A stretch of DNA of 64,000 nucleotides from Bradyrhizobium genosp. L (GTDB taxonomy: Bacteria > Pseudomonadota > Alphaproteobacteria > Rhizobiales > Xanthobacteraceae), in contig NZ_CP061378.1 of the NCBI RefSeq assembly GCF_015624485.1, positions 2,914,001-2,978,000 on the forward strand. The letters are read 5' to 3'. Under the pieces are notes generated by a model. The model saw only the letters and a list, made by a program, of their open reading frames with translations, had not been told where the DNA came from and searched no databases. Both the position numbers and the translations under genes were made by a program. This document shows positions 31,953 to 49,903 of the stretch, piece by piece (position 1 is the stretch's first letter; each line of letters begins with the position of its first letter).

Positions 31953-31985
31953 AGACAAAACAACATCGATATGGGGCGGAAACAC

Positions 31986-33203: not shown

Positions 33204-33241
33204 CGCGCGGTGCAGCGGAAAGACAGCCAGTAGGTAGAGAC

Positions 33242-34534: not shown

Positions 34535-35727
34535 GCGCGCGGGCGAGACACGAGCGCACGCTGAGAGGCCGCGTCGCCGTCGTCGGCATCGGCGAGACCG
34601 ACTATTACCGGCACGGCGGTTCGCCCGACGCGGAGTTCAAGCTTGCGCTCAAGGCGATCCTGGCGGCCTGCGAGGACGCCGGCCTCGACCCGCGCGAGAT
34701 CGACGGCTTCTCGTCCTACAGCGAGGATCGCAGCGAGGCCTCGCGGCTGGCCGCCGCATTGGGGACGTACAGGTTGCGGACCGCAACGATGCAGTGGGGC
34801 GGCGGAGGCGGCGGCTGCTGCGCGGCGGTCGGCAACGCGGCGGCCGCGATCGTCGCCGGCCTTGCCGATTGCGTCGTCGTGTTCCGCTCGCTGGCGCAAG
34901 GCCAGTATGGCCGCTTCGGACAGACGACCGGGCTCAACACCGTCTCGGGCGAACGCGCTTATCTGATGCCGTACGGCGTGCTGGCGCCGCCGCAACGCTT
35001 TGCGATGCGGGTGACCCGCTATATGCACGAGCATGGCGTCCGGCAGGAGGCCCTGCGCGCGATCGCGCTGGCATCCTATCGGCACGCGCAGGCCAATCCG
35101 CGCGCGGTGATGTATGGCCGGCCGCTCGATGTTGCCAAATACGAAGCGTCGCGCTGGATCGTGGAGCCGTTCCATCTCTACGATTGCTGCATGGAGAACG
35201 ACGGTGCCGCGGCGATTGTGCTCGTCGCCGAGGAGCGCGCCAAAGACTTCAAGCACAAGCCGGCCTATCTGCTCGGGGCCGCCATGGGCTCCGGCCATCG
35301 CGCGGCGGCGACCGCGCACAACTCGCCGCTTTACGCGACCTCCAGCTTCGACACGGTCGCGCCGGATCTTTATCGCATGGCCGGCGTCGGGCCGTCCGAT
35401 GTCGGCGTGGTCCAGGCCTATGAGAACTTCACCGGCGGCGTCGTGATGGCGCTGGCCGAGCACGGCTTCTTCAAGCCGGAGGAGGCCAACGACTTTTTGA
35501 CCGTCGAGAACCTGACCGCGCCATCCGGGCGGCTGCCGCTCAACACCAGCGGCGGCAACCTCGCCGATTGCTACATGCACGGCTTCGAGCTCGTGGTCGA
35601 AGCAGTCCGCCAGGTGCGCGGCACGTCGACCAGCCAGGCAAAACGAAGCGATGTCGCGATGGTCATCGGTGGCCCGATGGTGACGCCGGCGTCCAATCTC
35701 CTTCTCGGCTCGGAGGCTGTGCTATGA
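34531..35727 (+). CDS. thiolase-like protein (SCP2/Ltp2-type)
   Basis: A 398-residue thiolase-fold protein, opening with GRVAVVGIGETDYYRHGG. The usual nucleophilic cysteine region reads GGGGGGCCAAVGNAAAAI, and the C-terminal part has VVQAYENFTGGVV (Tyr near residue 297) and PLNTSGGNLADCYMHGF. Typical degradative-thiolase CxG and GHP motifs are not obvious, and the gene is coupled to a DUF35 gene. That pairing matches the Ltp2-ChsH2 retro-aldolases of steroid side-chain catabolism, so carbon-carbon cleavage of a beta-hydroxyacyl-CoA is more likely than thiolysis. This is an inference. Confidence 0.85.
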   Translation: MSARARHERTLRGRVAVVGIGETDYYRHGGSPDAEFKLALKAILAACEDAGLDPREIDGFSSYSEDRSEASRLAAALGTYRLRTATMQWGGGGGGCCAAVGNAAAAIVAGLADCVVVFRSLAQGQYGRFGQTTGLNTVSGERAYLMPYGVLAPPQRFAMRVTRYMHEHGVRQEALRAIALASYRHAQANPRAVMYGRPLDVAKYEASRWIVEPFHLYDCCMENDGAAAIVLVAEERAKDFKHKPAYLLGAAMGSGHRAAATAHNSPLYATSSFDTVAPDLYRMAGVGPSDVGVVQAYENFTGGVVMALAEHGFFKPEEANDFLTVENLTAPSGRLPLNTSGGNLADCYMHGFELVVEAVRQVRGTSTSQAKRSDVAMVIGGPMVTPASNLLLGSEAVL

Positions 35728-36182
35728 GCAAGACCGCGAGCTCGCACTATCTTCCTGCCGGGCTGCCTGGTCCGGCCGCCGAGACCGATGGCCTGTCGAC
35801 GCCCTATTGGAGCGGCTTGCGTGAGAATCGTCTGCGCGTGCAGCGCTGCAACCGCTGCCAAACCTGGCAGTTCGGGCCGGAGTGGATCTGCCACCACTGC
35901 CACGCCTTCGATCCCGGATGGATCGAGGTCGAGCCGGTCGGCCGCATCTTCAGCTGGGAGCGCGTCTGGCATCCGTCGCACGCGGCGCTGAAGCAGCACG
36001 GACCCTACATCGCGGTGCTGGTCGAATTGCCGCACGCCGGCGGCGTCCGCATGGTCGGCAACCTGATCGGCGATCCCTTACAGGATGTCATCATCGGCGC
36101 CGATGTCGAAGGTGTTTTTGAGCACCATGCCGATGCGGATCCAGCATTTTCACTGCTGCAATGGCGCCTCCGCGCCAGCTGA
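35724..36182 (+). CDS. DUF35 / OB-fold zinc-ribbon acyl-CoA-associated protein
   Basis: A 152-residue protein with an N-terminal zinc ribbon (CNRCQTWQFGPEWICHHC, near residues 40-60) and a C-terminal OB fold (IFSWERVWHPSH, GPYIAVLVELPHAGGVRMVG). The family partners thiolase-like proteins and resembles the aldolase-binding DUF35 domain of ChsH2. It overlaps the thiolase-like gene by four bases. It is the last gene of the rightward island; the inverted repeat at 36279-36299 lies about 100 bases downstream. Confidence 0.88.
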   Translation: MSKTASSHYLPAGLPGPAAETDGLSTPYWSGLRENRLRVQRCNRCQTWQFGPEWICHHCHAFDPGWIEVEPVGRIFSWERVWHPSHAALKQHGPYIAVLVELPHAGGVRMVGNLIGDPLQDVIIGADVEGVFEHHADADPAFSLLQWRLRAS

Positions 36183-36278
36183 CAGGCGGGAGCGCGATCA
36201 CGGGGATGCACGCTTGCGCGCGGGCTCCAGCGCACGATGCCTGCTTCGGACTTGCTATCGATGCGCGAACTGGTCGGA

Positions 36279-36299
36279 TCGTCTACCTGAACTAGACGA
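36279..36299. repeat. inverted repeat in the 305-base gap before amiC
   Basis: TCGTCTA (36279-36285) and TAGACGA (36293-36299) form perfect 7-base arms around a 7-base spacer. There is no T-run after it. It may be a regulatory palindrome for amiC or a weak transcript end for the DUF35 gene. The rest of 36183-36487 holds no recognisable gene, and I see no convincing promoter. Confidence 0.4.
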
Positions 36300-36487
36300 A
36301 TAGCGACGCGCCTGCGGTTGTCCGCGTTCCTCTAAGGTGCGTCTGCCTTCCTTTTCGCCACCGGCGCACATTGTTCAGTCCTTGTGCATCGGCAGACGCC
36401 GTGCAATTCTCCGCGGCCGGCAACCCAGTCGAGAGCAACAAGAACAACAATCACTCTCGTCCCTCCTGCGATGTTGAGGGCTTGATC

Positions 36488-37642
36488 ATGTCGAACCTTG
36501 CAGAGACGACGTCCGCGCCATGGCGGATCGGAGTGCTGTTTTCGCGGACCGGCTTCATGTCGGTCATCGAGGAAACCCAATATCAGGGCACGCAACTCGC
36601 GATCGAGGAGGTCAACGACGCCGGCGGCGTGTGCGGCCGCGAGCTGGTTCCATTCGCCTACGATCCCGGTTCAGACTCATCGGCCTATGGCCACTACGCG
36701 AAGCGGCTGATGATCGAGGACCAGGTCAGCACGATCTTCGGCTGCTACACCTCGTCGAGCCGCAAGGCGGTGCTGCCGGTCGTCGAGCGGTTGAACGGTC
36801 TGCTCTGGTATCCGACCCTCTACGAGGGTTTCGAGGCCTCGCCCAACGTCATCTACACCGGCGCATCGCCGAACCAGAACAGCCTCGCGCTGTGCCGCTA
36901 CCTGATGGATAGCTTCGGCAAGCGGTTCTATTTCGTCGGCTCCGATTACATCTATCCGCGCGAGTCGAACCGCGTGATGCGCGAATTGCTCAAGGCCAAT
37001 GGCGGTTCGGTGGTCGGCGAGCGCTACGTCAACGTCTACGCCCGCTGGCAGGATTTCCTGCCGATCATCCAGGACATCAAGCGACTGCGGCCCGACGTGA
37101 TCTTTTCCACCGTGGTCGGGGAGGGCACGGTGTTCCTCTATCAAGCCTATGCCAATGTCGGGCTCGATCCCAGGCAGATGCCGATCGCGAGCCTGACCAC
37201 CACGGAGGCCGAGATCGCGGCGATGGGTTTCGACGTCGGCGAGGGGCACATCACGGCGGCATCCTACTTCCAGGGCATCGAAGGCAGCGCCAACGAGGCG
37301 TTCGTGCAGCGTTTCAAGAAGCGGTTCGGCGACGGTGTCTCGACCAATATGTGCGCCGAAGCGTCGTACTTCCAGTTGCGTTTATTCGCCAAGGCGCTCG
37401 AGCAGGTCAACACGCTCGACACCGAGGTGTTGCGCTCGATGGTGTTCGGCTCGAGCTTCGAGGCGCCGCAGGGCGCGGTCACCGTCAACCCGATGTCGGG
37501 CCATACCGACTTGTGGACCCGCATCGGGCGTGCCAATCATGATGGACAGTTCGATGTCGTGCGCCAGTCCAAGGAAGCGGTGCATGCGGATCCGTTCTTG
37601 ATCGGCTATGGTCGCGCAACGCAAACGGGAAGCGTCCAATGA
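36488..37642 (+). CDS. amiC: AmiC-type cytosolic amide sensor / negative regulator
   Basis: A 384-residue protein of the periplasmic-binding fold without any signal peptide, like Pseudomonas aeruginosa AmiC (385 residues). Shared stretches are GCYTSSSRKAVLPVVER, YPTLYEGFEASPNVIYTG, VGSDYIYPRESNRVM, FSTVVG and ASLTTTEAEIAAM. In the known system AmiC binds AmiR and holds it inactive until an amide such as acetamide binds. Here amiC overlaps amiR by four bases, which gives matched amounts of both. The ATG at 36488 follows GAGGG; the frame is open upstream to 36371. Confidence 0.93.
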   Translation: MSNLAETTSAPWRIGVLFSRTGFMSVIEETQYQGTQLAIEEVNDAGGVCGRELVPFAYDPGSDSSAYGHYAKRLMIEDQVSTIFGCYTSSSRKAVLPVVERLNGLLWYPTLYEGFEASPNVIYTGASPNQNSLALCRYLMDSFGKRFYFVGSDYIYPRESNRVMRELLKANGGSVVGERYVNVYARWQDFLPIIQDIKRLRPDVIFSTVVGEGTVFLYQAYANVGLDPRQMPIASLTTTEAEIAAMGFDVGEGHITAASYFQGIEGSANEAFVQRFKKRFGDGVSTNMCAEASYFQLRLFAKALEQVNTLDTEVLRSMVFGSSFEAPQGAVTVNPMSGHTDLWTRIGRANHDGQFDVVRQSKEAVHADPFLIGYGRATQTGSVQ

Positions 37643-38280
37643 ACGAGATTTCGCGTAAGCCGTCCGCCAGCCGCGAGATGGGTGGACGGAAGACCATGGT
37701 GCAGGAGCTTGCCGATCTGTCGGCGGTCGTGGTCGCCCCGGTCGACGATCAGACCGGGATGTTGCTGCGCGAGCTGCAGCGCTTCCGGATGCGGGTCCGC
37801 CAGGTGTGGCCGATGCCGGAGAGCGTGCCGGCCGATGCCGACGTGGTGTACTGCGAGTACTCGCCCGACCTGGCGCGGCGGCTGCCGTGGATTCCCGGCG
37901 ACGCGCGCTCTGCGCTGGTCGTCATCCTGCCGGTCACGGAAGCCATTCACGCCGACGCGCTGTGCAACGCGACGCCGAATGCGATCCTGCCGCGGCCGTT
38001 CACGCCGAACGCGGTGCTGTCGAGCCTCGTGCTGGCGCGCAGCCAATATGGCTACGAGCGGCGGCTGCGCAGCAAGATCGAGAAGCTCGACGACAATTTG
38101 CGCTCGATGCGCACGGTGGAACGCGCCAAGGCCATCCTGATGGCGACGCGGCAGATGCCGGAGACCGAGGCCTATGGCTTCATCCGGCGGCAGGCGATGG
38201 ATCGTCGCGTGTCGGCGAGCGCGGTCGCTGCGGCGATTGTTGACTCGTTCGAACTGCTTGGCTACGATCATCAACAGTAA
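37639..38280 (+). CDS. amiR: AmiR-type ANTAR-domain transcription antiterminator
   Basis: A 213-residue protein with a pseudo-receiver domain (residues about 20-140) that lacks the usual phospho-acceptor aspartate (the strand reads DVVYCEYSPDLA). A coiled-coil linker (RSKIEKLDDNLRSMRTVERA) follows, then the ANTAR domain (AKAILMATRQMPETEAYGFI, RRQAMDRRVSASAVAAAIVD). Control therefore comes through AmiC rather than phosphorylation, as in Pseudomonas. The gene ends one base before the first leader hairpin, so its target RNA is probably the segment 38281-38386 just downstream. Confidence 0.93.
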   Translation: MNEISRKPSASREMGGRKTMVQELADLSAVVVAPVDDQTGMLLRELQRFRMRVRQVWPMPESVPADADVVYCEYSPDLARRLPWIPGDARSALVVILPVTEAIHADALCNATPNAILPRPFTPNAVLSSLVLARSQYGYERRLRSKIEKLDDNLRSMRTVERAKAILMATRQMPETEAYGFIRRQAMDRRVSASAVAAAIVDSFELLGYDHQQ

Positions 38281-38315
38281 GCCCCAATAGCGGGGCCGGC
38301 GGCGACAGCGCCGCC
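38281..38315 (+). promoter_or_regulatory. tandem six-base-loop hairpins, candidate ANTAR antiterminator RNA
   Basis: Hairpin P1 is GCCCC (38281-38285), loop AATAGC, GGGGC (38292-38296). Hairpin P2 is GGCGGC (38298-38303), loop GACAGC, GCCGCC (38310-38315). One base separates them. The two loops share A, AG and C at matching positions. The published ANTAR target is two hairpins with six-base loops carrying an A and a G three positions apart; here they fall at loop positions 2 and 5 rather than 1 and 4. Fold is by eye; role inferred from position and the AmiR neighbour. Confidence 0.65.
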
Positions 38316-38333
38316 TTCGACACAACCGGCAAC

Positions 38334-38386
38334 AAAGCCCTCCCAATGCTCGCGTCAGCGCGCATCGGGAGGGCTTTTTGTTTTTT
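38334..38386 (+). terminator. intrinsic terminator in the leader, between amiR and the amide transporter genes
   Basis: AAAGCCCTCCC (38334-38344) pairs perfectly with GGGAGGGCTTT (38367-38377), and the stem continues inside (ATGC/GCAT and CGC/GCG around a GTCA loop). A T-rich tail TTTTTGTTTTTT follows. It stands 22 bases before the binding-protein start, so transcription would stop before the transporter and amidase genes unless antiterminated. Confidence 0.9.
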
Positions 38387-38407
38387 CAGTCCTGAAGGGA
38401 GCGAGGG

Positions 38408-39658
38408 ATGAGCATTACGAGGCGGAAGTTACTGAGAAATACGGCGGCGTTCGGCGCCTTCACCGGCGCCGGCTTTCCGCACATCTGGATCAAGAATGCC
38501 GATCTTGCCCAGGCGGCCGGCGGCGAGATCAAGGTCGGCGTGCTGTTCTCGCTGACGGGAACGACCGCGATCATCGAGGAATCCCTCAACAAGGCGACGT
38601 TGCTGGCGATCGAGGAGATCAACGCGGCCGGCGGCATCAAGGGCAGCAAGATCGTGCCGATCGTCGAGGATCCCGCCTCCGATCCCGCGACTTTCTCGGA
38701 GAAGGCGCGCAAGCTCGTCGTCGGCGACAAATGCGTCAGCGTGTTCGGTTCCTACACCTCGGCGAGCCGCAAGGCGGTGCTGCCGGTGTTCGAGCGGCAG
38801 AACAATCTCTATTGGTATCCGACGCTCTACGAAGGCCGCGAGTGCTCGAAAAACGTCATCTACACCGGCGCGGTGCCGAACCAGCAGCAGGATGAGTTCG
38901 TGCCCTGGCTGGTCAAGAAATTCGGCAAGAAGTTCTACCTGATCGGCTCGAACTACATCTATCCGAAGGAAGAGAACAACTACTGCAAGAAGCTGTTGGA
39001 GAAGCTCGGCGGCGAAGTCGTCGCCGAGGAGTATGTGCCGCTCGGCCACTCCGAATTCTCGTCCGTCATCAACAAGATCCGCTCGACCCAGCCGAACGTG
39101 ATCTTCTCTACCGTGGTCGGCGATTCCGTCGTCGCGCTGCATCGCCAGTATCGCGCCGCCGGCCTCGATCCGGAGAAGATGCCGATGGCGAGCCTGACCA
39201 CGTCCGAGAACGAGGTCGCGGCGATGGGCGGCGAGGCCGCCGCCGGCCACTTCACCTCGGCGCCGTACTTCATGGTGCACAAGTCGCCGGAGAACGAAAA
39301 ATTCGTCGAGGCCTACAAGAAGCGCTGGGGCGCCGACAAGGTCACGCATTTCGTGTCGGAGGCCTGCTACTTCCAGACCTACCTGTTCAAGCAGGCGGTC
39401 GAGAAGCTCGCGACCAGCGACATCACTCCGCCGAACATCCGCGACGCCGTGAAGGGCGAGGAGACCATCGCGCCGCAGGGTAAGGTCCGGATCGAGCCGG
39501 AGAATCTTCACACCTGGCTGTGGCCGAAGATCGCGCAGGCCAAGTCGAACGGCCAGTTCGAGATCCTCGTCGAGACCAAGGAATGGCTGAAGCCGGTGCC
39601 CTACGCGGCCTATCCCGGGCAGTCCTGCACCGAAAAGGGCCTGGTCGAGAAGAGCTGA
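38408..39658 (+). CDS. urea/amide-type ABC transporter substrate-binding protein (Tat-exported)
   Basis: A 416-residue UrtA/FmdD-like binding protein. The N-terminus MSITRRKLLRNTAAFGAF is a twin-arginine signal, followed by a hydrophobic stretch to about residue 36. The mature part has GEIKVGVLFSLTGTTAIIEE, YPTLYEGRECSKNVIYTGAV, GSNYIYPKEENNYCKKLLEK and ASLTTSENEVAAM, which parallel AmiC. It is first after the terminator, with GGAGCGAGGG ahead of the ATG. It probably captures short-chain amides or urea-like compounds for the permeases that follow. Confidence 0.9.
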   Translation: MSITRRKLLRNTAAFGAFTGAGFPHIWIKNADLAQAAGGEIKVGVLFSLTGTTAIIEESLNKATLLAIEEINAAGGIKGSKIVPIVEDPASDPATFSEKARKLVVGDKCVSVFGSYTSASRKAVLPVFERQNNLYWYPTLYEGRECSKNVIYTGAVPNQQQDEFVPWLVKKFGKKFYLIGSNYIYPKEENNYCKKLLEKLGGEVVAEEYVPLGHSEFSSVINKIRSTQPNVIFSTVVGDSVVALHRQYRAAGLDPEKMPMASLTTSENEVAAMGGEAAAGHFTSAPYFMVHKSPENEKFVEAYKKRWGADKVTHFVSEACYFQTYLFKQAVEKLATSDITPPNIRDAVKGEETIAPQGKVRIEPENLHTWLWPKIAQAKSNGQFEILVETKEWLKPVPYAAYPGQSCTEKGLVEKS

Positions 39659-39748
39659 CGACGGGGGCCGACGAAGGCCGTCGGCGTGCGGCGCCGGCGG
39701 CCATCGCCCAGCGATCATCGGACGAACGGATCACAAGCGGAACTTGGC

Positions 39749-40618
39749 GTGGACCAATTCATCGAACAGATCATCACGGGCCTCAGCATCGGCTCGATCC
39801 TGCTGTTGGTCGCGCTCGGGCTGTCGATCATCTACGGGTCGATGGGCATCATCAATCTCGCCCATGGCGAGTTCGTGATGCTCGGCGCTTACGCGGCCTG
39901 GGTGTTTCACACCTATTTCGGGCTCGGTCTGCTGGCGAGCCTGGTTCCGATCTTCCTCGTGGTCGCGGCATTCGGCTGGGTGATCGAGCGCTTCGTATTA
40001 AGCTTGCTCAACAACCGGCCGCTGGACACGATCCTCGCGACCTGGGGCGTCGGCATCATGCTGCAGCAGGGGGTGCGGCTGATGGTCGGCAGCGAATTGC
40101 GCTACGTGCAATTGCCGCCGGCGCTGTCCGGCAGCATGGACGTGCTCGGCCTGTCGGTGTCGTCCTATCGGGTGTTCCTGTTCGTCATCTCGATCGCGCT
40201 GTTCGCGGCAACCTGGTTGCTGATGAACCGCACCACGGTCGGGATGAAGCTGCGCGCCATCATTCAGGATCGTTCGGTCGCGGCGTCGTTCGGCATCAAC
40301 GCCAAGCGGGTCTACGCGCTGACCTTTGCATACGGTGCCGGGCTCGCGGGCCTTGCCGGGGCGCTGGTGTCGCCGCTGAAAAGCGTGTCGCCCGACATGG
40401 GCACCGGCTATGTCGTCGACGCCTTCATGGTGGTGGTGCTCGGCGGCGTGCAGAGCCTTGCCGGCACGGTGGCGAGTGCCTTCATCCTCGGCGAGCTCTC
40501 CGGCGGCATCGCCTTCCTGCAGAACGACACGGTGGCCAAGGCGATCGTGCTGCTCGCCATCGTCGTCCTCATCCGTTTCCGCCCGGAAGGGCTGTTCACC
40601 GCACGCGTGCGGGCCTGA
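39749..40618 (+). CDS. ABC transporter permease, LivH/UrtB type
   Basis: A 289-residue inner-membrane permease with about eight hydrophobic segments. IIYGSMGIINLAHGEFVMLGAY is the LivH signature, and the C-terminus ends with IVLIRFRPEGLFTARVR. I start at GTG 39749 (MDQFIEQIITGLSIGS), which begins the conserved sequence; the frame is open back to 39686 but with unrelated residues. Ninety bases separate it from the binding protein. It forms the transport channel with the LivM-type partner. Confidence 0.9.
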   Translation: MDQFIEQIITGLSIGSILLLVALGLSIIYGSMGIINLAHGEFVMLGAYAAWVFHTYFGLGLLASLVPIFLVVAAFGWVIERFVLSLLNNRPLDTILATWGVGIMLQQGVRLMVGSELRYVQLPPALSGSMDVLGLSVSSYRVFLFVISIALFAATWLLMNRTTVGMKLRAIIQDRSVAASFGINAKRVYALTFAYGAGLAGLAGALVSPLKSVSPDMGTGYVVDAFMVVVLGGVQSLAGTVASAFILGELSGGIAFLQNDTVAKAIVLLAIVVLIRFRPEGLFTARVRA

Positions 40619-40630
40619 GATCGCCGCTTC

Positions 40631-41770
40631 ATGTCATCGAACGTCTCCACATCAAACGGATTGCAGCGGCTGACGGTGCAGCTCGCGCCGCTGCTCGTCG
40701 TCTGCGCGCTGGTGTTTGCGCTGCCGTTGCTGCTCAACAACGATTTCCTGCTCAACAAGGTCGCGCGCTATCTGGTGCTCGGCATCCTCACGATCTCGCT
40801 CGGCCTGTCCTGGGGATTCGGCGGCATCCTCAATCTCGGCCAGGCCATGAGCTTCGGGCTCGGCTCCTACGCGATGGCGATGGCGTTGAAGCTCAAGACC
40901 GTTCCGGTGCATACGGGGGCGAGCGGGCTGCCGGACTTCATGGTCTGGAACAATGTCCCGCAGCTGCCGTGGTTCTGGGTGCCGTTCCGCTCGCTGAGCT
41001 TTGCGATCGCCGCCGGCATGATCGTGCCGGCGCTGGTCGCGGCGGCACTCGGCTGGTTCATGTTCCGCGGTCGTGTCACCGGCGTCTACGTCTCGATCAT
41101 CACGCTCGCCACCATGGTGGTGCTCAACCTCGTGATCATCGACCAGCAGAGCTACACCGGCGGCTTCAACGGCATCACCGATCTCGCCCAGCTCGAGATT
41201 TTCGGCGTCGCCTTCGATGCCTATGGCCGCGCCACCTACTATCTCGTCGCTGGCTGCGTGCTGCTCAGCCTGCTGGTCGCCTTTGCCTTCACGAAGTCGC
41301 GGGCCGGCCTGATCGTGCAGGCGATCCGCGACCATGAGAGCCGGGTGCGCTATTTCGGCTACGACGTCGCGCTCTACCAGATTTTCGTGTTCGCGCTGTC
41401 GGCGGCGATCGCGGGGCTTGCCGGCATGCTCTACACGGTGGTGATGGAGTTTGCCTCGCCGACCTTCCTCGGCGTGCAGTTGTCGCTCTCGGTCGTGGTG
41501 TGGTGCGCGGTGGGCGGCCGGCAGAGCCTGGTCGGCGCTTTCCTCGGTGCTGTGCTGGTGGCGGGCATGCAGGGCGCGCTGTCGGAATCCGCCGCGTTCC
41601 TGGAGACCTGGACGCTGGTGATGGGCGCACTGTTCGTGCTCGTGGTGCTGTTCCTGCCCAAAGGATTGGCCGGCCTCGCGCAGGCCGCGCTGCGCTGGAT
41701 GGTGCAGCGCCGGCAGGCCGCGGGCGCGGGCGTTGCGCAGGGCGTCGGCCAGACGGAGGGCAGCACATGA
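40631..41770 (+). CDS. ABC transporter permease, LivM/UrtC type
   Basis: A 379-residue permease with about ten hydrophobic segments. Typical stretches are LTISLGLSWGFGGILNLGQAM, GVYVSIITLATMVVLN, AIRDHESRVRYFGYDVALYQ and VVWCAVGGRQSLVGAFLGAV. It is 12 bases downstream of the LivH-type gene and overlaps the first ATPase gene by four bases. The second half of the transmembrane channel. Confidence 0.92.
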   Translation: MSSNVSTSNGLQRLTVQLAPLLVVCALVFALPLLLNNDFLLNKVARYLVLGILTISLGLSWGFGGILNLGQAMSFGLGSYAMAMALKLKTVPVHTGASGLPDFMVWNNVPQLPWFWVPFRSLSFAIAAGMIVPALVAAALGWFMFRGRVTGVYVSIITLATMVVLNLVIIDQQSYTGGFNGITDLAQLEIFGVAFDAYGRATYYLVAGCVLLSLLVAFAFTKSRAGLIVQAIRDHESRVRYFGYDVALYQIFVFALSAAIAGLAGMLYTVVMEFASPTFLGVQLSLSVVVWCAVGGRQSLVGAFLGAVLVAGMQGALSESAAFLETWTLVMGALFVLVVLFLPKGLAGLAQAALRWMVQRRQAAGAGVAQGVGQTEGST

Positions 41771-42519
41771 CCTCCCATCTCGATCTGCGCGACGTCTCGG
41801 TGAGCTTCAACGGTTTCAAGGCGCTCAACGCGCTGAACATGAGCGTTCGCAAGGGCGAATTGCGCTGCCTGATCGGGCCGAACGGCGCCGGCAAGACGAC
41901 CGCGCTCGACATCATCTGCGGCAAGGTCAAGCCGACCGCCGGCACCGTGACATTCGACGGCACCGCGCTGCAGGATCTCGAGGAATACGAGATCGCCCGC
42001 GCCGGTGTCGGCCGCAAGTTCCAGGTGCCGAGCGTGTTTCGCGAGCTCACCGTCAGCGAAAATCTCGAAGTGGCGCGGGCCCGTCACACCAGCGTGCTCG
42101 GCAATCTGCGCTGGGATGTCCGGAATTCCGGGCGTGAGCCGGTCCAGCGTCTCGCCGAGCTGGTCGGGCTGACCGAACAGCTCGACCGGCCGGCCGCCTA
42201 TCTCTCGCATGGCCAGACCCAGTGGCTAGAGATCGGCATGCTGGTCGCGCAGGACGCCGAGCTGATCCTGATGGATGAACCCACCGCCGGCATGACGGCG
42301 CAGGAGACCCGCAAGACCGCCGAACTGTTCGCGCGGCTGAAGGGACGGCACACCCTGATTGTGGTCGAGCACGACATGGGTTTCGTCAAGGCGATCGGCG
42401 ACATCATTTCGGTGATGCATATGGGCCAGATGCTCGCCGAGGGCACGGCGGCGGAGGTGGAGGCGCATCCCGAAGTGCGCCGCGCCTACCTCGGATCGGG
42501 AGGCATCAGCCATGCTTGA
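41767..42519 (+). CDS. ABC transporter ATPase, UrtD type
   Basis: A 250-residue ATPase. Walker A is GPNGAGKTTALD near residue 38, the signature loop is the UrtD-specific LSHGQTQWLEIGMLVAQD, and Walker B is ELILMDEPTAGMT. The unusual HGQTQW signature, in place of LSGGQ, is characteristic of the urea-type HAAT systems and separates this transporter from branched-chain amino acid ones. The ATG at 41767 overlaps the LivM stop; the frame is open further upstream inside that gene. Confidence 0.93.
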   Translation: MTSHLDLRDVSVSFNGFKALNALNMSVRKGELRCLIGPNGAGKTTALDIICGKVKPTAGTVTFDGTALQDLEEYEIARAGVGRKFQVPSVFRELTVSENLEVARARHTSVLGNLRWDVRNSGREPVQRLAELVGLTEQLDRPAAYLSHGQTQWLEIGMLVAQDAELILMDEPTAGMTAQETRKTAELFARLKGRHTLIVVEHDMGFVKAIGDIISVMHMGQMLAEGTAAEVEAHPEVRRAYLGSGGISHA

Positions 42520-43204
42520 GCTGACCGATATCGACGCCTTCTACGGCAACAGCCGCGCCTTGCAGGGCATCAACCTCACGGTCGGCGGCGGCGAATTCCT
42601 CGCGGTGCTCGGCCGCAACGGTGTCGGCAAGACCACGCTGATGCGCAGCATCCTCGGGCTGATGGACCGCGTGACAGGGCGGCTGTCGCTCGACGGCAAC
42701 GACATCTCTCCTCTACGGACCTATCAGCGCGCCAAGGCCGGCATCGCCTATGTGCCGCAGGGCCGCGGCATCCTGCCGCGCTTCACCGTGCGCGAGAACC
42801 TGACGCTCGGCACCTTCGCCGCGCGGTCGCCGAACGGCATCGAGGAGTGGGTGCTCGAGCTGTTTCCGGTGCTCAAGGAGTTCCTCAACCGCCACGGCGG
42901 CAATCTGTCCGGCGGCCAGCAGCAGCAGCTTGCGATCGCGCGCGCCCTGCTGGCGCAGCCGAAAGTCATCCTGCTCGACGAGCCGACCGAAGGCATTCAG
43001 CCGAATATCGTCGAGCAGATCGAGGACGTGATCGTCAAGCTCAACCGCGAGCGCGGCATCACGGTCGTTCTCGTCGAGCAGAACGTCACGTTCGCACGGC
43101 GCGCGTCACACCGCTTCGCATTGCTCGAAAAGGGTCGCGTGGTCGCCAAGGGCGCGATCGGCGAACTCACCGATGATCTCATCCAGCTGCACATGGCGGT
43201 GTAG
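42512..43204 (+). CDS. ABC transporter ATPase, UrtE/LivF type
   Basis: A 230-residue ATPase. Walker A GRNGVGKTTLMRSILG is near residue 33, the Q-loop region reads VPQGRGILPRFTV, the signature is NLSGGQQQQLAIARALL, and Walker B is VILLDEPTEGIQPN. Its start overlaps the UrtD-type gene by eight bases in another frame. It completes the five-gene transporter; amiE follows 27 bases later. Confidence 0.94.
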   Translation: MLELTDIDAFYGNSRALQGINLTVGGGEFLAVLGRNGVGKTTLMRSILGLMDRVTGRLSLDGNDISPLRTYQRAKAGIAYVPQGRGILPRFTVRENLTLGTFAARSPNGIEEWVLELFPVLKEFLNRHGGNLSGGQQQQLAIARALLAQPKVILLDEPTEGIQPNIVEQIEDVIVKLNRERGITVVLVEQNVTFARRASHRFALLEKGRVVAKGAIGELTDDLIQLHMAV

Positions 43205-43231
43205 CCAGCTTTCACTGAAGGGAGTCGAAAC

Positions 43232-44269
43232 ATGCTGCATGGTGATATTTCTTCCAGCAAGGACACGGTCGGCGTCGCCGTGGTCAATTACAAGATGCCG
43301 CGGCTGCACACCAAGGCCGAGGTGCTGGACAACGCGCGCAACATCGCCAAGATGGTCGAGGGCATGAAGCTCGGCCTGCCGGGCATGGACCTCGTGATCT
43401 TCCCGGAATATTCCACCCACGGCATCATGTACGACTCCAAGGAGATGTACGAGACCGCGTCGTCGGTGCCGGGCGAGGAAACCCGCATCTTCGCCGACGC
43501 CTGCCGCAAGGCCAACGTCTGGGGCGTGTTCTCGCTGACCGGCGAGCGCCACGAGGAGCACCCGAACAAGGCGCCCTACAACACGCTGATCCTGATGAAC
43601 GACAAGGGCGAGATCGTGCAGAAGTATCGCAAGATCATGCCCTGGGTGCCGATCGAGGGCTGGTATCCCGGCGACTGCACCTACGTCTCGGACGGGCCGA
43701 AGGGGCTGAAGATCAGCCTGATCATCTGCGACGACGGCAACTATCCGGAGATCTGGCGCGATTGCGCGATGCGCGGCGCCGAGCTGATCATCCGCTGCCA
43801 GGGCTACATGTATCCGGCCAAGGAGCAGCAGATCCAGATATCGAAGTCGATGGCCTGGGCCAACAACTGCTACGTCGCGGTCGCCAACGCCTCCGGCTTC
43901 GACGGCGTCTACTCCTATTTCGGCCATTCGGCGCTGATCGGCTTCGACGGCCGCACGCTCGGCGAATGCGGCACCGAGGAGAACGGCATCCAGTATGCGC
44001 AGCTTTCGGTGTCGCTGATCCGCGATGCCCGCCGCAACATGCAGTCGCAGAACCATCTCTTCAAGCTGATGCATCGCGGCTACACCGGCCTGATCAACTC
44101 CGGCGAGGGCGACCGCGGCCACGCGGTCTGCCCCTACACGTTCTACAAGAACTGGATCACGGATCCTGAAGGCACGCGGGAGATGGTCGAGGCCATGACG
44201 CGTCCGACCGTCGGCACCGACGAATGCCCGATCGAAGGCATTCCGAACCAGAAGGTAGCGCATCGCTGA
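43232..44269 (+). CDS. amiE: aliphatic amidase AmiE
   Basis: A 345-residue nitrilase-superfamily amidase that is very close to Pseudomonas aeruginosa AmiE (346 residues). The catalytic residues fall at the same numbers: Glu59 (VIFPEYS), Lys134 (QKYRKIMPW), Glu142 (PIEGWYPG) and Cys166 ([10 protein letters not shown]). It hydrolyses short-chain aliphatic amides such as acetamide and propionamide to the acid and ammonia in the cytoplasm. It sits downstream of the amide transporter in the AmiR-controlled operon, with AAGGGAG ahead of the ATG. Confidence 0.97.
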
Positions 44270-44356: not shown

Positions 44357-45688
44357 ATGAGTGGTCAATTGAATAGCGACGCGGTTCATCCGGCCGAGGG
44401 ACAGATCGACGATCTTCTCGGCCATGAATTCGAGCACGAAGCCGTGCCGATGAACGCCCGGCGCAGCGCGTTCTCGGTCACGATGGTGTGGCTGGGTTTT
44501 CCGATGATCATCACCGGCGCGATGACGGGATCGCTGCTGGTTCTTGGAATGGGGTTCAAGAACGCGCTGGTGGCGATGATTCTCGGCAATCTGATCATGT
44601 TCGCCTATGTCGGCGCGCTCGGCCTGATCGGCACGCGGCGCGGCATGAACTTCGCCCTGATCGCTAGCATCGTGTTCGGGAAGAAGGGCTACGTGCTGGC
44701 ATCCGGTCTGCTGTCGACCCTGCTGCTCGGCTGGTACGCCGTGCAGACCGGCATTACCGGCGCCTTGATCTCCTCGACTTACGGCCTCAATTATGTGGCG
44801 ATGACTGTGGTCGCGGGCATTCTCTACATCGGGATCACCTTCGTCGGGGTGAGGGGCCTGCACTGGATCGGGCTGGCATCGGTGCCGCTGTTCGTCGTGC
44901 TCGGTCTCTTTGTCGCGACCGACGCAGCCTCGACGACGACAGCGGCGGCGATCTTCGCCTATCCCGGCAACAACGGCGCGGCCAGCATGTCGATGGGCGT
45001 CGGGCTGACGGTCGTGCTCGCGTTGTTCATCGACGCCGGTACGGTGACCGCGGACTTCAATCGCTGGGCGCCGAGTGCGCGCGCCTCGCTCGTCGCCACG
45101 TTCAGCGCGTTTCCGTTCGCCAATCTGGTGGCGATGCTGGTCGGCGGCGTGATGACCGCGGCGCTGGCCGTGCCGAACGCCAATCCGTTCGGCGTCGACA
45201 ACATGTTCGGCTATATGAACGGCAAGCAGATGACCTGGCTGAGCATTCTCGCCTTCGTCTTCCTCTACACCAATCTCGGCTCGGTCTGCTCGCACTGCCT
45301 GTACAATGCGGCCACGGGGTGGTCGCGCATTCTCGGCACCAACATGCGATTGATGGCGGTGGTGCTCGGCGCGCTCGGCATCGTCGTCGCCGCAGGGAAT
45401 GTCTGGGCCTTCTTCATCCAATGGCTGTCGCTGCTCGGCATCCTGGTGCCGCCGATCGGTGCGATCATCCTGGTCGATCAGTATCTGCTCCGCGCCGACG
45501 CGCAGGCCGATGTCGACTGGCGGGCCAAGCCCTTCGTTGCGTGGGGCATCGGGTCGCTCTGCGCCTTCGCGGTTGAAAATCTGATGCCGGGGTTGTCCAC
45601 TGCGGTGTCCGCGGCGCTCGTCGCCGGTATCGTGTATCTGGTGATCGCGCGGGAGCCCTCCGCGCAGAAGGTCGCGCGTGCGGCCTGA
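44357..45688 (+). CDS. NCS1-family permease (cytosine/purine/allantoin type)
   Basis: A 443-residue membrane protein with about 12 hydrophobic helices. The N-terminal MNARRSAFSVTMVWLGFPMI, the VGLTVVLALFIDAGTVTADFNRW segment in helix 6 and the LVPPIGAIILVDQYLL segment are NCS1 features similar to CodB. It is 87 bases downstream of amiE, with a GGGGG run ahead of its ATG. It would add proton- or sodium-driven uptake of a nitrogen compound to the operon. Whether it carries amides or a nucleobase-like compound is open. Confidence 0.88.
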   Translation: MSGQLNSDAVHPAEGQIDDLLGHEFEHEAVPMNARRSAFSVTMVWLGFPMIITGAMTGSLLVLGMGFKNALVAMILGNLIMFAYVGALGLIGTRRGMNFALIASIVFGKKGYVLASGLLSTLLLGWYAVQTGITGALISSTYGLNYVAMTVVAGILYIGITFVGVRGLHWIGLASVPLFVVLGLFVATDAASTTTAAAIFAYPGNNGAASMSMGVGLTVVLALFIDAGTVTADFNRWAPSARASLVATFSAFPFANLVAMLVGGVMTAALAVPNANPFGVDNMFGYMNGKQMTWLSILAFVFLYTNLGSVCSHCLYNAATGWSRILGTNMRLMAVVLGALGIVVAAGNVWAFFIQWLSLLGILVPPIGAIILVDQYLLRADAQADVDWRAKPFVAWGIGSLCAFAVENLMPGLSTAVSAALVAGIVYLVIAREPSAQKVARAA

Positions 45689-45721: not shown

Positions 45722-46741
45722 ATGAGCCTCGACTATCAGATATATGATCTCGGCAATCTGACCCTGCAGCGCGGCGCGACGCTGCGCGACTGCAAGCTCG
45801 CTTACAAGACGTTCGGGCAGCTCAATGCGGCCAAGGACAACGTGATCGTCTATCCGACCTGGTATTCCGGCCAGCACTACGACAATGAGTGGCTGGTCGG
45901 CCCCGGAATGGCGCTCGATCCCGCAAAATACTTCATCATCATCCCCAACATGCTCGGCAACGGCTTGTCGTCGTCGCCGAGCAACACGCCGGAGCCCTAT
46001 AACGGGCCGCGCTTCCCGCAGGTCACGGCCTGCGACAATGTGCGGGCCCAGCACCGGCTGGTGACCGAGAAATTCGGCATCGAGCACATCCGCATGGTGG
46101 TCGGATGGTCGATGGGCGCCTTGCAGACGTTCCATTGGGGCGCGCTGTACCCCGACATGATGGATTTGCTGGCGCCATTCTGCGGCTCGGCGAAATGCTC
46201 CCGCCACAACATCGTCTTCCTTGAAGGCGTCAAGGCAGCGCTGACGGCGGACGCTGCCTGGAAGGAGGGCTGGTACACCGAGAAGCCGGCCCGCGGCCTG
46301 CGCGCCGCCGCGCGCGTCTATGCCGGCTGGGGCTTTTCGCAGGCCTTCTATCGCGAACAGCTCGATATCAAGACGTTGGGCTATTCCTCGCTGGAGGATT
46401 TTCTGGTCGCTTTCTGGGAGGGCTTCTTCCTGCCGAAGGATCCGAACAATCTGCTGACCATGCTGTGGACCTGGCAGAACGGCGATATCAGCGACAACGA
46501 GCTCTACAAGCGCGACTTCAAGGCCGCGCTCGGCGCCATCAAGGCCAGGACCTATGTGATGCCGGGGCAGACCGACCTCTATTTCCCACCCGAGGACAGC
46601 GAGTTCGAGGTCGCGAACATGCCGAACGCCAAGTTCGTGCCGGTGCCGTCGATCTGGGGCCATTTCGCGGGCGGGCCGGGAACCAATCCGGTCGACGTCG
46701 GCTTCATCGACGCCAGGCTGAAGGAGCTGCTCGCATCGTGA
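45722..46741 (+). CDS. MetX-like alpha/beta hydrolase
   Basis: A 339-residue alpha/beta-hydrolase of the homoserine O-acetyltransferase (MetX) group. The nucleophile is Ser130 in GWSMGALQTFHWG, the acid is in MPGQTDLYFPPEDSEF, and the histidine in PSIWGHFAGGPG. The oxyanion region is YPTWYSGQHYDNEWLVGPG. It has AAGGAG before the ATG. A role in methionine synthesis is unlikely in this setting; it is more probably an ester or amide hydrolase or acyltransferase for the compound imported here. It precedes the MoxR gene. Confidence 0.82.
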   Translation: MSLDYQIYDLGNLTLQRGATLRDCKLAYKTFGQLNAAKDNVIVYPTWYSGQHYDNEWLVGPGMALDPAKYFIIIPNMLGNGLSSSPSNTPEPYNGPRFPQVTACDNVRAQHRLVTEKFGIEHIRMVVGWSMGALQTFHWGALYPDMMDLLAPFCGSAKCSRHNIVFLEGVKAALTADAAWKEGWYTEKPARGLRAAARVYAGWGFSQAFYREQLDIKTLGYSSLEDFLVAFWEGFFLPKDPNNLLTMLWTWQNGDISDNELYKRDFKAALGAIKARTYVMPGQTDLYFPPEDSEFEVANMPNAKFVPVPSIWGHFAGGPGTNPVDVGFIDARLKELLAS

Positions 46742-46774
46742 CGCCGCTCCTTGCGACATGCCGTCAGCGCGATC

Positions 46775-47602
<828 letters not shown>

Positions 47603-47611
47603 GACAGAAGC

Positions 47612-49903
47612 GTGGCGGTCGCGCACATCAGTTCGCTCGAAAACATCCGCTCCGGCCGCAGGCTGGCGGAAGTTCTGCGCGGCCATGATGATATCGGCAC
47701 AGCGGTACGGACGACGCGCGCGACGCTTGAGGGCCGGCCCGAACTGGCCAATCGCCTCGCGATTTGGGACGTGGCCGTGCGCGGCCTGTTCGAGGCCAAT
47801 CTCGGCGAGGCCGTGGTCTTCAACTTTCTGCGGCTGTCGGAGCACTGGCCGGCGCAGCGTTCGGCCCACGATCTGCTCGCGATCGGCCGCGGCGCTGCCG
47901 ACATCGGCCGCAGCGCCGGAAGCCGCGTCGCCCATGCGGCGTTGACCGAACTGTCAAAGGTCCTGCCTCGGCTGGCAGGAGCAGGTGAGGTCACGACTGT
48001 GCTCGCTGCGCTTTGCGAACTCGCGGATGCCGGGCCGGAATCCGTGGGACTTGCGATTGTTCGCCTGGAGCAGTTGCTTGGGCACGCCAGCGCAGAGGAT
48101 TTTTCCGCCTGGGTATCCGCCGGCCTGCGCGCTAGCGGAGGTCGCGCGGCGCGGCGACGGGCTTACTTCGCGCTCGACGACGCGCTCTCGGCACGCCTGT
48201 TTGCGCTGGGTCGTACCAGTGATGATTTCGCCCGGCTGGAGAAGCGCCTCGCGGCGACGATGACGGCGCTTTGGAACCGCAAGCCGCGCTTTCGCAAGCT
48301 CGCAATTGCGCCGACGCCGGTGCCGCGACGGACCTCGCTGGCGGGCGGCCTCGTCGGCTTGCCCGAGACGTTTGCCGGATTTGACGGCGCGCGCGCCGAC
48401 GCCATCTATCTTGCGGCAGTCGCGCATGCCGGTGCGCATTTCGTGCATTCCACCGCGCGATTTCCGGTCGGCCGGCTGAAGGCGCTGCAGCTTGCGCTGG
48501 TCTCGCTGATCGAGGACGCCAGGGTGGAGACGCTGGCGCTGCGCGAGATGCCCGGCCTGCGCCGGCTGTGGCTGCCGTTTCACACCGCGACGCCGTCCGG
48601 CCAGGCCACCGCGGCAGGATTGATGACGCGGCTGGCGCGAGCGTTGATCGATCCGGGCTATCAGGATTCCGACGGCTGGGTCGCGAAAGGGCGGGCGCTG
48701 TTCGTCGCCGCCTCCGACCGCTGGAGCGATCCTGCCATCAGCCGCGAGATCGGCGGGCTGCTCGGCAACGACATCGGGCAGATGCGGCTGCAGTTCAACG
48801 CCAAGAGCTATGTCGTCGAACCCGCCTATCGCGACGATAATCTCGCGCTATGGGATTTCGGCGACCAGCCGGATAGCCCGACCGAGACGATCGAGCTTGC
48901 GGTGGATTCGGTGCGGATCGAGCAGCGCGAGGACGCAACCGGGCCGTCGCGCGATGACGACGCGAAGCCGGATGAGACGCTGCGTGCTCGCGCCAGCCAG
49001 GTTACTTTGCTAGACGGGCTTCCGGTCGCGACCTACCCGGAATGGGATTATGCCGCCGACATCGATCGGATGGACTGGACGACGATCCTGGAGGCGGATG
49101 CGGCCGCTTCCGCCGGAGCCGTTGCGCCGCCCGCGGAGTCGGAGGCGATGCGCAGCATCGCGCGGCTGACCCGTGACGCGTCGATCGGCCGCAGGCTCCG
49201 CCTCAAGGGCCAGCGCGACGGCGATGCGCTCGACATCGACGCTGCGATCGCGCTCGCGATCGAGCGCCGTGCCGGCCACCTCGGTGAATCCAGGGTCTAC
49301 CAGCGCGACGCGCCGGGCCCGCGCGACCTTGCCATTCTCTTGCTGATGGACCTGTCGCAATCGACCGCCGATCGCGACCGCGCCGGCCGGACCGTGCTCG
49401 ACGTCGAGCGCAAGGCCGCCGCGATCATGGCCACGGCGGTCAACGCGGCCAATGATGCGATCGCCGTGCATGGCTTCAGCTCGGATGGTCGCGAGCGCGT
49501 GCGCTATCTGCGGGTCAAGGGCTTTGACGAGCCGATGGACGCGGTGGTGCATTCCCGGCTCGCAAGGCTCGCGAGCGGCCATTCGACGCGGCTCGGCACC
49601 GCGTTGCGCCACGCCGGCGGCTATCTGGCGGGCCGCCGCGCCTTCCGCAAGGTGCTGCTGGTGCTGACGGACGGCGAGCCTTCGGACATCGATGTGCCCG
49701 ACCCGCAATACCTCACCGAGGATGCGCGCCGCGCGGCGCAGCAGCTGCGGCGCGGCGGCATCGACATCTTCGCCTTTGGCATCGGCGGAGGCCGGTTTCA
49801 CCAGCTCGACCGCATCTTCGGCGAGCGCCGCGCGCTACGCGTGCCACGCATCGATGTGCTGCCGCAGCGGGTGATGCAGCTCTATGCGGAGTTGAAGAAA
49901 TAG
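47612..49903 (+). CDS. VWA-domain protein (NorD/CbbO-like partner of MoxR ATPase)
   Basis: A 763-residue cytoplasmic protein. The first 540 residues are helical and of NorD/CbbO type; the C-terminal von Willebrand A domain has the MIDAS motif LLMDLSQST (Asp580) and the second loop LVLTDGEPSDIDVPD. It starts with GTG at 47612, ten bases after the MoxR stop. In known pairs the VWA protein docks the AAA+ ring onto the client enzyme. The client here is unknown; amidase and hydrolase are the nearest candidates. Confidence 0.88.
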   Translation: MAVAHISSLENIRSGRRLAEVLRGHDDIGTAVRTTRATLEGRPELANRLAIWDVAVRGLFEANLGEAVVFNFLRLSEHWPAQRSAHDLLAIGRGAADIGRSAGSRVAHAALTELSKVLPRLAGAGEVTTVLAALCELADAGPESVGLAIVRLEQLLGHASAEDFSAWVSAGLRASGGRAARRRAYFALDDALSARLFALGRTSDDFARLEKRLAATMTALWNRKPRFRKLAIAPTPVPRRTSLAGGLVGLPETFAGFDGARADAIYLAAVAHAGAHFVHSTARFPVGRLKALQLALVSLIEDARVETLALREMPGLRRLWLPFHTATPSGQATAAGLMTRLARALIDPGYQDSDGWVAKGRALFVAASDRWSDPAISREIGGLLGNDIGQMRLQFNAKSYVVEPAYRDDNLALWDFGDQPDSPTETIELAVDSVRIEQREDATGPSRDDDAKPDETLRARASQVTLLDGLPVATYPEWDYAADIDRMDWTTILEADAAASAGAVAPPAESEAMRSIARLTRDASIGRRLRLKGQRDGDALDIDAAIALAIERRAGHLGESRVYQRDAPGPRDLAILLLMDLSQSTADRDRAGRTVLDVERKAAAIMATAVNAANDAIAVHGFSSDGRERVRYLRVKGFDEPMDAVVHSRLARLASGHSTRLGTALRHAGGYLAGRRAFRKVLLVLTDGEPSDIDVPDPQYLTEDARRAAQQLRRGGIDIFAFGIGGGRFHQLDRIFGERRALRVPRIDVLPQRVMQLYAELKK

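Follow-up and report, generated by a model that had tools for sequence, protein, structure and literature searches.

A putative AmiC/AmiR antitermination switch ahead of an amide-type ABC importer and an amidase in Bradyrhizobium genosp. L

The locus described here lies in a 64,000-nucleotide stretch of Bradyrhizobium genosp. L (contig NZ_CP061378.1, positions 2,914,001 to 2,978,000, forward strand), which is called the window and to which positions refer unless another locus is named. Homologues of AmiC, AmiR and an aliphatic amidase occur in this one locus, as in the amidase system of Pseudomonas, together with the five genes of an ATP-binding cassette (ABC) importer (Table 1). A preliminary description, made from the letters alone, had placed amide uptake and hydrolysis behind a single AmiC/AmiR antitermination switch. 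In this study, we compared the locus with its relatives and analysed the predicted folding of its leader RNA. The best solved relative of the amiC product was AmiC (1pea, E 3e-90), and the amiR product matched chain D of 1qo0, which is AmiR (E 9e-14). The gene for this cognate ANTAR-domain protein, with both AmiR_N and ANTAR above cut-offs, lies beside the leader. The layout of the genes had been described correctly: amiC and amiR overlap by the shared bases ATGA, the first base of the leader adjoins the amiR stop codon, and family models placed an amide-type binding protein of a five-gene importer, and then amiE, beyond the terminator.

Table 1. Genes and leader elements of the locus, in window positions
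Feature	Position	Strand	Assignment and basis
amiC	36488..37642	+	By homology, cytoplasmic sensor of amides that inhibits AmiR; Pfam Peripla_BP_5
amiR	37639..38280	+	ANTAR-domain RNA-binding antiterminator, by homology; Pfam AmiR_N and ANTAR above cut-off
-35 hexamer TTGACT	38240..38245	+	Probable promoter within the amiR 3' end
-10 hexamer TACGAT	38263..38268	+	Spaced 17 nt from the -35; start inferred near 38275
P0 hairpin, GCCCC-AATAGC-GGGGC	38281..38296	+	First hairpin of the preliminary description
PA hairpin, GGCGGC-GACAGC-GCCGCC	38298..38315	+	Second hairpin of the preliminary description; first ANTAR-type hexaloop
PB hairpin, GGC-AACAAA-GCC	38328..38339	+	Antiterminator hexaloop, missed in the preliminary description
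Intrinsic terminator stem, 11 lower pairs	38334..38377	+	Arms AAAGCCCTCCC (38334-38344) and GGGAGGGCTTT (38367-38377)
T tract TTTTTGTTTTTT	38375..38386	+	
Importer binding protein	38408..39658	+	UrtA-like, amide-type pocket
Permease, UrtB family	39749..40618	+	TIGR03409 above cut-off
Permease, UrtC family	40631..41770	+	TIGR03408 above cut-off
ATPase, UrtD family	41767..42519	+	TIGR03411 above cut-off
ATPase, UrtE family	42512..43204	+	TIGR03410 above cut-off
amiE, aliphatic amidase	43232..44269	+	NF009802, 720 bits against a cut-off of 427; PDB 2plq, E 2e-199
NCS1-type permease	44357..45688	+	Pfam Transp_cyt_pur
Alpha/beta hydrolase, MetX-like	45722..46741	+	Family-model matches
CbbQ/NorQ-type ATPase	46751..47602	+	Pfam AAA_5 and CbbQ_C
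VWA protein, NorD-like by position	47612..49903	+	Pfam VWA

The leader contains the two hairpins with six-base loops that had been noticed one base apart, designated here P0 and PA. They had been taken as the ANTAR pair, and this assignment did not hold, as both lie clear of the terminator and lack G at loop position 4. In ANTAR antitermination, the second hairpin must have bases in common with the terminator, according to the available parts of three papers (PMC3369931, PMC8934654, PMC3369936). Such a hairpin, PB, had been overlooked: its 3' arm (38337-38339) falls within the terminator 5' arm. The linker between PA and PB is 12 nt, inside the range of 2-25 nt given for ANTAR hairpins in the accessible text of PMC8164766, and both hexaloop hairpins are kept in relatives. 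On these features of the RNA, PA and PB are the likely ANTAR-type working pair and P0 is an extra hairpin. The terminator stem of 11 pairs and its T-tail were as described, except that the gap from PA is 18 bases and not 20. The leader fold had a stability z of -4.7, and 0 of 200 shuffled sequences were as stable.

Two other drawings of this region were dropped. A pairing of GCCGG (38295-38299) with CCGGC (38326-38330) is lost in the related locus L034. The folding program drew PA as a tetraloop, with a G-C pair closing ACAG; since this closing pair is absent in relatives with GACACA, GACACT or AACAGC, the conserved PA unit is a hexaloop. A generic terminator scan of 36150-38450 reported no terminator, presumably because it allows loops of at most 8 bases and the 11 pairs enclose a mismatched upper part of 22 bases. 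Rfam matched the leader 29 times among the matches listed at a permissive threshold, each below its gathering score; over the window, its only gathering-level match was a distant cobalamin riboswitch (1168-1383, + strand, 103 bits, full length).

Competition between PB and the terminator was seen in the predicted folds. In prefixes of increasing length, PB appeared at 38342 and persisted to 38370, and at 38374 the fold had changed to the terminator. When PB (and PA) were forced to form, only the upper part of the terminator remained, and the six pairs adjoining its T tract were lost. Enforcing PB gave -49.9 instead of -61.6 kcal/mol, a cost of about 12 kcal/mol that a bound protein would have to pay. 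A weak PB that needs stabilisation by protein would match the published ANTAR logic, as far as these fold models go.

We then compared the locus across the genus. Among 146 sampled genomes, 37 had an AmiR match at E 1e-10, and 16 of these, the window's own included, were 83-100% identical. The order amiC-amiR-leader-importer-amiE was kept in 31 of 32 loci from a contig search (in the remaining one, L088, the contig ends too early to tell), which backs the claim of an AmiC/AmiR-associated attenuator ahead of an amide importer and amidase. A PB-type hexaloop overlapping the terminator arm was present in all 15 representatives, which were picked by hand from the window's AmiR branch. The probability of an equal or better PB after shuffling the upstream 30 bases was 0.0015 to 0.1115 per leader. 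The PB stem and the terminator arm change in step, from GGC/GCC to GGGC/GCCC, AGGT/ACCT (L108) and AGC/GCT (L126), and they read GGGT/ACCT and GGGT/ACCC in the plasmid loci L172 and L173. L109, left out of the set by a text filter, also carries a PB-type hairpin. PA is kept in close and distant relatives alike.

In the nearest clade, all counted P0, PA and PB cells pair in 19 distinct leaders, and two P0 pairs changed on both sides; 6 rows with a gap at the outermost P0 pair were set aside in this alignment. It is silent on PB, because PB never varies there. In an 18-row alignment of wider relatives, pairing is seen in 99.4% of the PA and PB cells, and in 28.9-63.3% of them after sliding the partner. 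Conservation of the two loops first noticed was mixed: AATAGC of P0 is exact in 15 of the 19 nearest-clade leaders, with AATAGA, AACAGA or AAGGTT in the rest, and differs outside this clade, whereas GACAGC of PA is exact in only 5 of 19. The parts of the leader, their overlap, their conservation and the competition of predicted folds can all be read from sequence. The terminator apex (38345-38366, + strand, AATGCTCGCG...GCGCGCAT) was invariant in 19/19 clade leaders, with AmiR identity down to 65%. This seems to be more conservation than a plain terminator needs.

The leader was further searched with the covariance models R1 and R2. R2 scored the window leader at 87.5 bits. It was run against 31 other sources, none of them in the seed, of which eight were loci of distant AmiR-like genes used for comparison. 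At least 23 bits were reached in 14 of the 31 sources (L172, L171, L173, L176, L109, L046, L174, L140, L059, L044, L024, L123, L114 and L137; in L174 only before an amiC homologue), while the best comparison locus reached 19.4. R2 also gave 29.8 bits to the reverse strand of the window terminator, a palindrome effect. This leader type stands directly after amiR on plasmids of Rhizobium etli 8C-3, Roseibium algicola, Ciceribacter thiooxidans and Aestuarium zhoushanense. Of the six named records, only Agrobacterium L174 and Variovorax L175 had no R2 match after amiR.

Two leaders stand in tandem after amiR in the R. etli, Roseibium and Ciceribacter records. Tandem attenuators between amiR and the importer were found with R2 in L171 (4634-4708 and 4735-4820), L172 (4571-4645 and 4674-4755) and L173 (4571-4646 and 4674-4759), and with R1 in L063 (1381-1464 and 1257-1342), L107 (1414-1491 and 1292-1373) and L108 (2077-2154 and 2197-2277), whereas the window has one. 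The leader type was also observed before an amiC homologue in R. etli (L172, 2540-2623) and Agrobacterium (L174, 2558-2639), in the unannotated Ciceribacter locus (L173, 2471-2551) and before a cytosine permease in Roseibium (L171, 138-219); a weak match (20.4 bits) precedes cbtB in Agrobacterium (L174, 7947-8030). As some matches precede amiC homologues and other genes, some relatives may attenuate their own regulator, and more than one unit may be under the switch, which would mean autoregulation and a wider regulon there. The window's own genome has one clear leader copy. R2 found in this genome the leader, its reverse strand and one partial match of 20.8 bits. Further targets in the genome are not claimed: the remaining R1 matches scored at most 22.2 bits, and the four inspected by eye (L162, L163, L164 and L166) had no terminator with a T tract. 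In a pattern search, the reversed control also gave one match per strand. The same genome holds a second, divergent AmiC/AmiR-like pair (L003, contig position 2404558-2407713), with AmiC 36% identical.

Several points weigh against a working antiterminator leader. PB has three pairs only. In two loci of the same branch outside the 15 representatives, no terminator was found behind amiR (L040), or the leader match was weak (23.5 bits with R1) and the automatic search gave no PB (L041). In the 18-row alignment, both-side changes occurred in only 2 cells, 29 of 500 shuffles reached the observed values, and the covariation score was slightly higher at slides of +2 and +3. As covariation is modest, the conserved register and the finds outside the seed weigh more. 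In the R2 search, L022, L126, L128, L132 and L134 scored 17.8-21.8 bits and overlap the comparison loci, L120 reached at most 16.7 bits, and L175, L062 and L112 had no match at the E-value used. The last point concerns the loops: position 4 is A in both PA (GACAGC) and PB (AACAAA), and position 1 of PA is G. A1 and G4 of the published motif are described as essential in work on EutV and NasR, in the accessible portions of PMC3369931 and PMC3369936.

We therefore did not file the leader as a canonical A1/G4 motif. It is nevertheless built like that motif, and it is found by a covariance model that it shares with G4 leaders. Relatives with G4 exist. Among the 19 clade leaders, P0, PA and PB each have A at position 4 in 18 and G in the other. 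In a tree of 38 AmiR rows, PA and PB agreed at position 4 in 31 of the 37 rows with assigned loops (12 A/A and 19 G/G), and the other six were mixed or had T; four rows were assigned manually, and errors are possible among the automatic picks in distant rows. Of the 18 rows in the well-supported branch to which the window belongs, 12 are A/A, 4 G/G and 2 mixed. These results suggest a purine at position 4, with both loops shifting between G and A largely together. In the near set, AmiR residue 193, one of six positions that separate the sets, is A, T or V alongside A4 and I alongside G4. As the sequences are few and share ancestry, it is only a lead.

The 3' end of amiR probably contains a sigma-70-type promoter. 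All of the 24 amiR tails that were compared contain TTGAC, as GTT-GAC or ATT-GAC. Across nine divergent sequences, 11 degenerate codons of the tail keep their amino acid, and the four that are also invariant as codons are exactly those of the two hexamers: 201 (GTT) and 202 for the -35, and 209-210 for the -10. Codons 203-208 between the hexamers vary, 205 and 207 differing in one sequence each, and GTT makes up 12% of the Val codons in these genes. The three named plasmid loci L171-L173 have TTGACT-17-TAnnnT at the amiR end. Because of the TTGAC conservation, the codon-invariant hexamers and the recurrence in plasmid loci, the importer operon appears to have its own promoter. The preliminary description had noted that amiCR lies upstream of the stop signal, which holds, and had concluded that the sensor genes can be expressed at a basal level. 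This picture is incomplete, as a separate promoter probably lies directly ahead of the leader. We think that basal amiCR expression is a separate matter from the importer promoter.

Ten pocket positions were compared in AmiC, which we take to contact the amide; positions were mapped by spacing along alignments. They were identical in AmiC and the binding protein of the locus (YSYTLEYYVT), and the window AmiC agreed with 1pea at 9 of the 10 in the printed alignment. P. aeruginosa AmiC has Pro where both window proteins have Leu. As the two pockets are identical, sensor and importer look tuned to the same short-chain amide. The permeases and ATPases matched UrtB to UrtE at curated NCBIfam cut-offs, while the binding protein scored 423 bits against the UrtA model, below its cut-off of 493. 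The UrtA residues that form hydrogen bonds with urea are Ser122, Gln144, Tyr190 and Asn246 in the available text of PMC10392092. The binding protein keeps Ser122 and Tyr190, and has Leu for Gln144, Val for Asn246 and Tyr for Trp120. The same substitutions are found in AmiC of the locus. To go by these residues, the importer is of the Urt type with an AmiC-like, not a UrtA-like, pocket.

The importer behind the switch is not constant. The switch persists in L091, L034 and L098, where AmiR is 81-93% identical, but the importer genes are only 44-60% like those of the window; L091 and L098 show all five genes, and the short locus L034 shows the binding protein alone. The binding proteins of these loci are 87-96% identical to those behind another AmiR family (L028, L029, L030, L062 and L112). 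Their pocket reads YSYTYEYYVV, with two positions different from the window's, while amiE is still 97% (L091) and 91% (L098) like the window's. It looks like the importer cassette was exchanged behind a standing switch in three relatives.

We propose that the locus works as an AmiC/AmiR antitermination switch and put the probability of this whole model at about 0.8; AmiR binding, the amide response, promoter use and the role of P0 are what we infer in it. RNA polymerase would start at the promoter within the amiR 3' end, and may also read through from amiCR, and the transcript leader would carry P0, PA and PB. When amide is absent, AmiC would hold AmiR, as is known in P. aeruginosa. The weak PB would form first and be displaced by the 11-bp terminator, and transcription would stop near 38386. 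When amide is present, AmiC would release AmiR, and an ANTAR dimer would bind PA and then PB. Bound PB would lock the first arm of the terminator, with loss of the six lower pairs next to the T tract. The polymerase would then proceed into the importer and amidase genes, and possibly into those for the NCS1 permease, the hydrolase and the CbbQ/NorD-like proteins.

Other explanations were weighed against this model. P0 and PA could still be the ANTAR pair if AmiR acts with no terminator-overlapping hairpin at all. The two lie one base apart, can each take a six-base loop and are strongly conserved at AmiR identities of at least 65%, and most of nine wider relatives allow a hairpin to be drawn before PA, with a six-base loop in L020 (CTTGAA), L104 (ATTGAA) and L063 (GAAAAG). 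However, the favoured loops have four bases in L039 and L042, eight in L064 and nine in L111, and no clear hairpin was seen before PA in L065 and L107. The loop sequences in these nine are unrelated while PA and PB persist, and neither P0 nor PA overlaps the terminator, so we consider this pairing improbable. P0 is probably a third recognition or recruiting hairpin. A slightly smaller chance was given to an ordinary terminator that ends the amiCR transcript, with the importer promoter behind it and the hairpins incidental. The terminator is strong and stands directly behind amiR, as this would have it. PB and PA are, however, kept where linkers change, the conserved promoter-like hexamers lie before and not after the terminator, and only 21 bases separate the T tract from the start codon of the binding protein.

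That the locus senses and imports urea instead of amides was thought the least probable of all. The UrtB-E assignments of the permeases and ATPases speak for urea, whereas the UrtA score of the binding protein, the loss of Gln144, Asn246 and Trp120 in the same way as in the AmiC beside it, and the aliphatic amidase that closes the importer operon speak for amides. A more serious doubt, though still unlikely in our judgement, is that the leader is transcribed from an amiC promoter only and that TTGACT-TACGAT reflects coding constraint. Promoters of alphaproteobacteria are hard to call, a plain consensus scan stayed within chance (1 found, 0.4 expected), and the amino acids of the tail are conserved too. 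The codon test was one-sided and made on related sequences (4 of 11 against 10 of 92 in the rest of the gene, p = 0.041). On the other hand, the invariant Val codon is the rare GTT, the codons between the hexamers vary, and TTGAC stands at the same distance in distant relatives and the three named plasmid loci, all of which favour a promoter.

The surroundings of the switch were also recorded. The NCS1-type permease is possibly in the same regulon as the importer and amiE; a cytosine permease annotated in Roseibium begins 81 bases behind a leader of this type. Downstream of amiE, a CbbQ-type gene occurs in 11 of the 32 related loci and, after it, a NorD-like gene in 7, counts that are to be read with most of the other loci stopping short of that point. 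Upstream of amiC (31971-36182, + strand) are genes for another binding protein, a thiolase-like protein and ChsH2-type OB-fold proteins, and one that we read as CoA-transferase-like; these neighbours together adjoin amiC in 8 of 32 related loci. The element CTTGT...GTGCAAT (36380-36410, + strand), about 85 bases before amiC, recurs in near relatives and is a possible amiC promoter or operator. A sigma-54 promoter before amiC was dropped as a candidate. Its GG-N10-GC match at 36390 is found at the same place in only 9 of 26 upstream regions, all of them from near Bradyrhizobium relatives and including the window's own, and the other 17 lack it.

As a wider and tentative proposal, to which we give somewhat less than even odds, the AmiR recognition code would have changed from G4 to A4 in the two loops simultaneously, P0 would have been recruited to make a triple-hexaloop antiterminator, and a promoter would sit in the 3' coding end of the regulator. 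Switch and promoter would then travel as a single portable module, with importer cassettes exchanged behind it. In relatives with another cassette, the regulator and leader stay put with an unchanged sensor pocket while the cassettes change behind them. The recognition rule becomes testable in a natural family whose two loops shift between G4 and A4 largely in concert and which has close relatives of either kind, and searches that require A1 and G4 would miss such leaders. In the open-licence literature, as far as its texts were available and with most subscription journals outside it, we found no description of loops with A4, of a triple hexaloop or of a promoter within amiR.

The combination of amiCR, an ABC importer and amiE has been published before. 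The available part of PMC13209695 gives the plasmid operons amiE-amiC-amiR-ABC importer (Klebsiella) and amiE-amiC-amiR-CbbQ-NorD (P. veronii), which are like the window in gene content, with an amidase, amiCR and either an ABC importer or CbbQ/NorD. The Klebsiella operon has four importer genes, and that part of the paper contains no leader analysis that we could find. ANTAR matches ahead of urea transporters are mentioned in the accessible text of PMC3369931. The UrtABCDE urea importer resembles that of the window in its permease and ATPase families, but the score and pocket of the window's binding protein are not those of UrtA. The EutV and NasR leaders, in the available portions of PMC3369931 and PMC8934654, likewise have two hexaloops, the second overlapping the terminator, and the window's linker is in the published range. 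In contrast to them, the window lacks G4 in both loops and A1 in PA, and its nearest clade has three hexaloops. The amidase operon of P. aeruginosa shares with the window AmiC, AmiR, a leader with P1, P2 and a terminator, and an aliphatic amidase as target, according to the accessible part of PMC3369936. Unlike that operon, the window has amiCR upstream of the leader, an ABC importer as the first target, A for G at loop position 4, the extra hairpin P0 and an amiR with a seemingly buried promoter.

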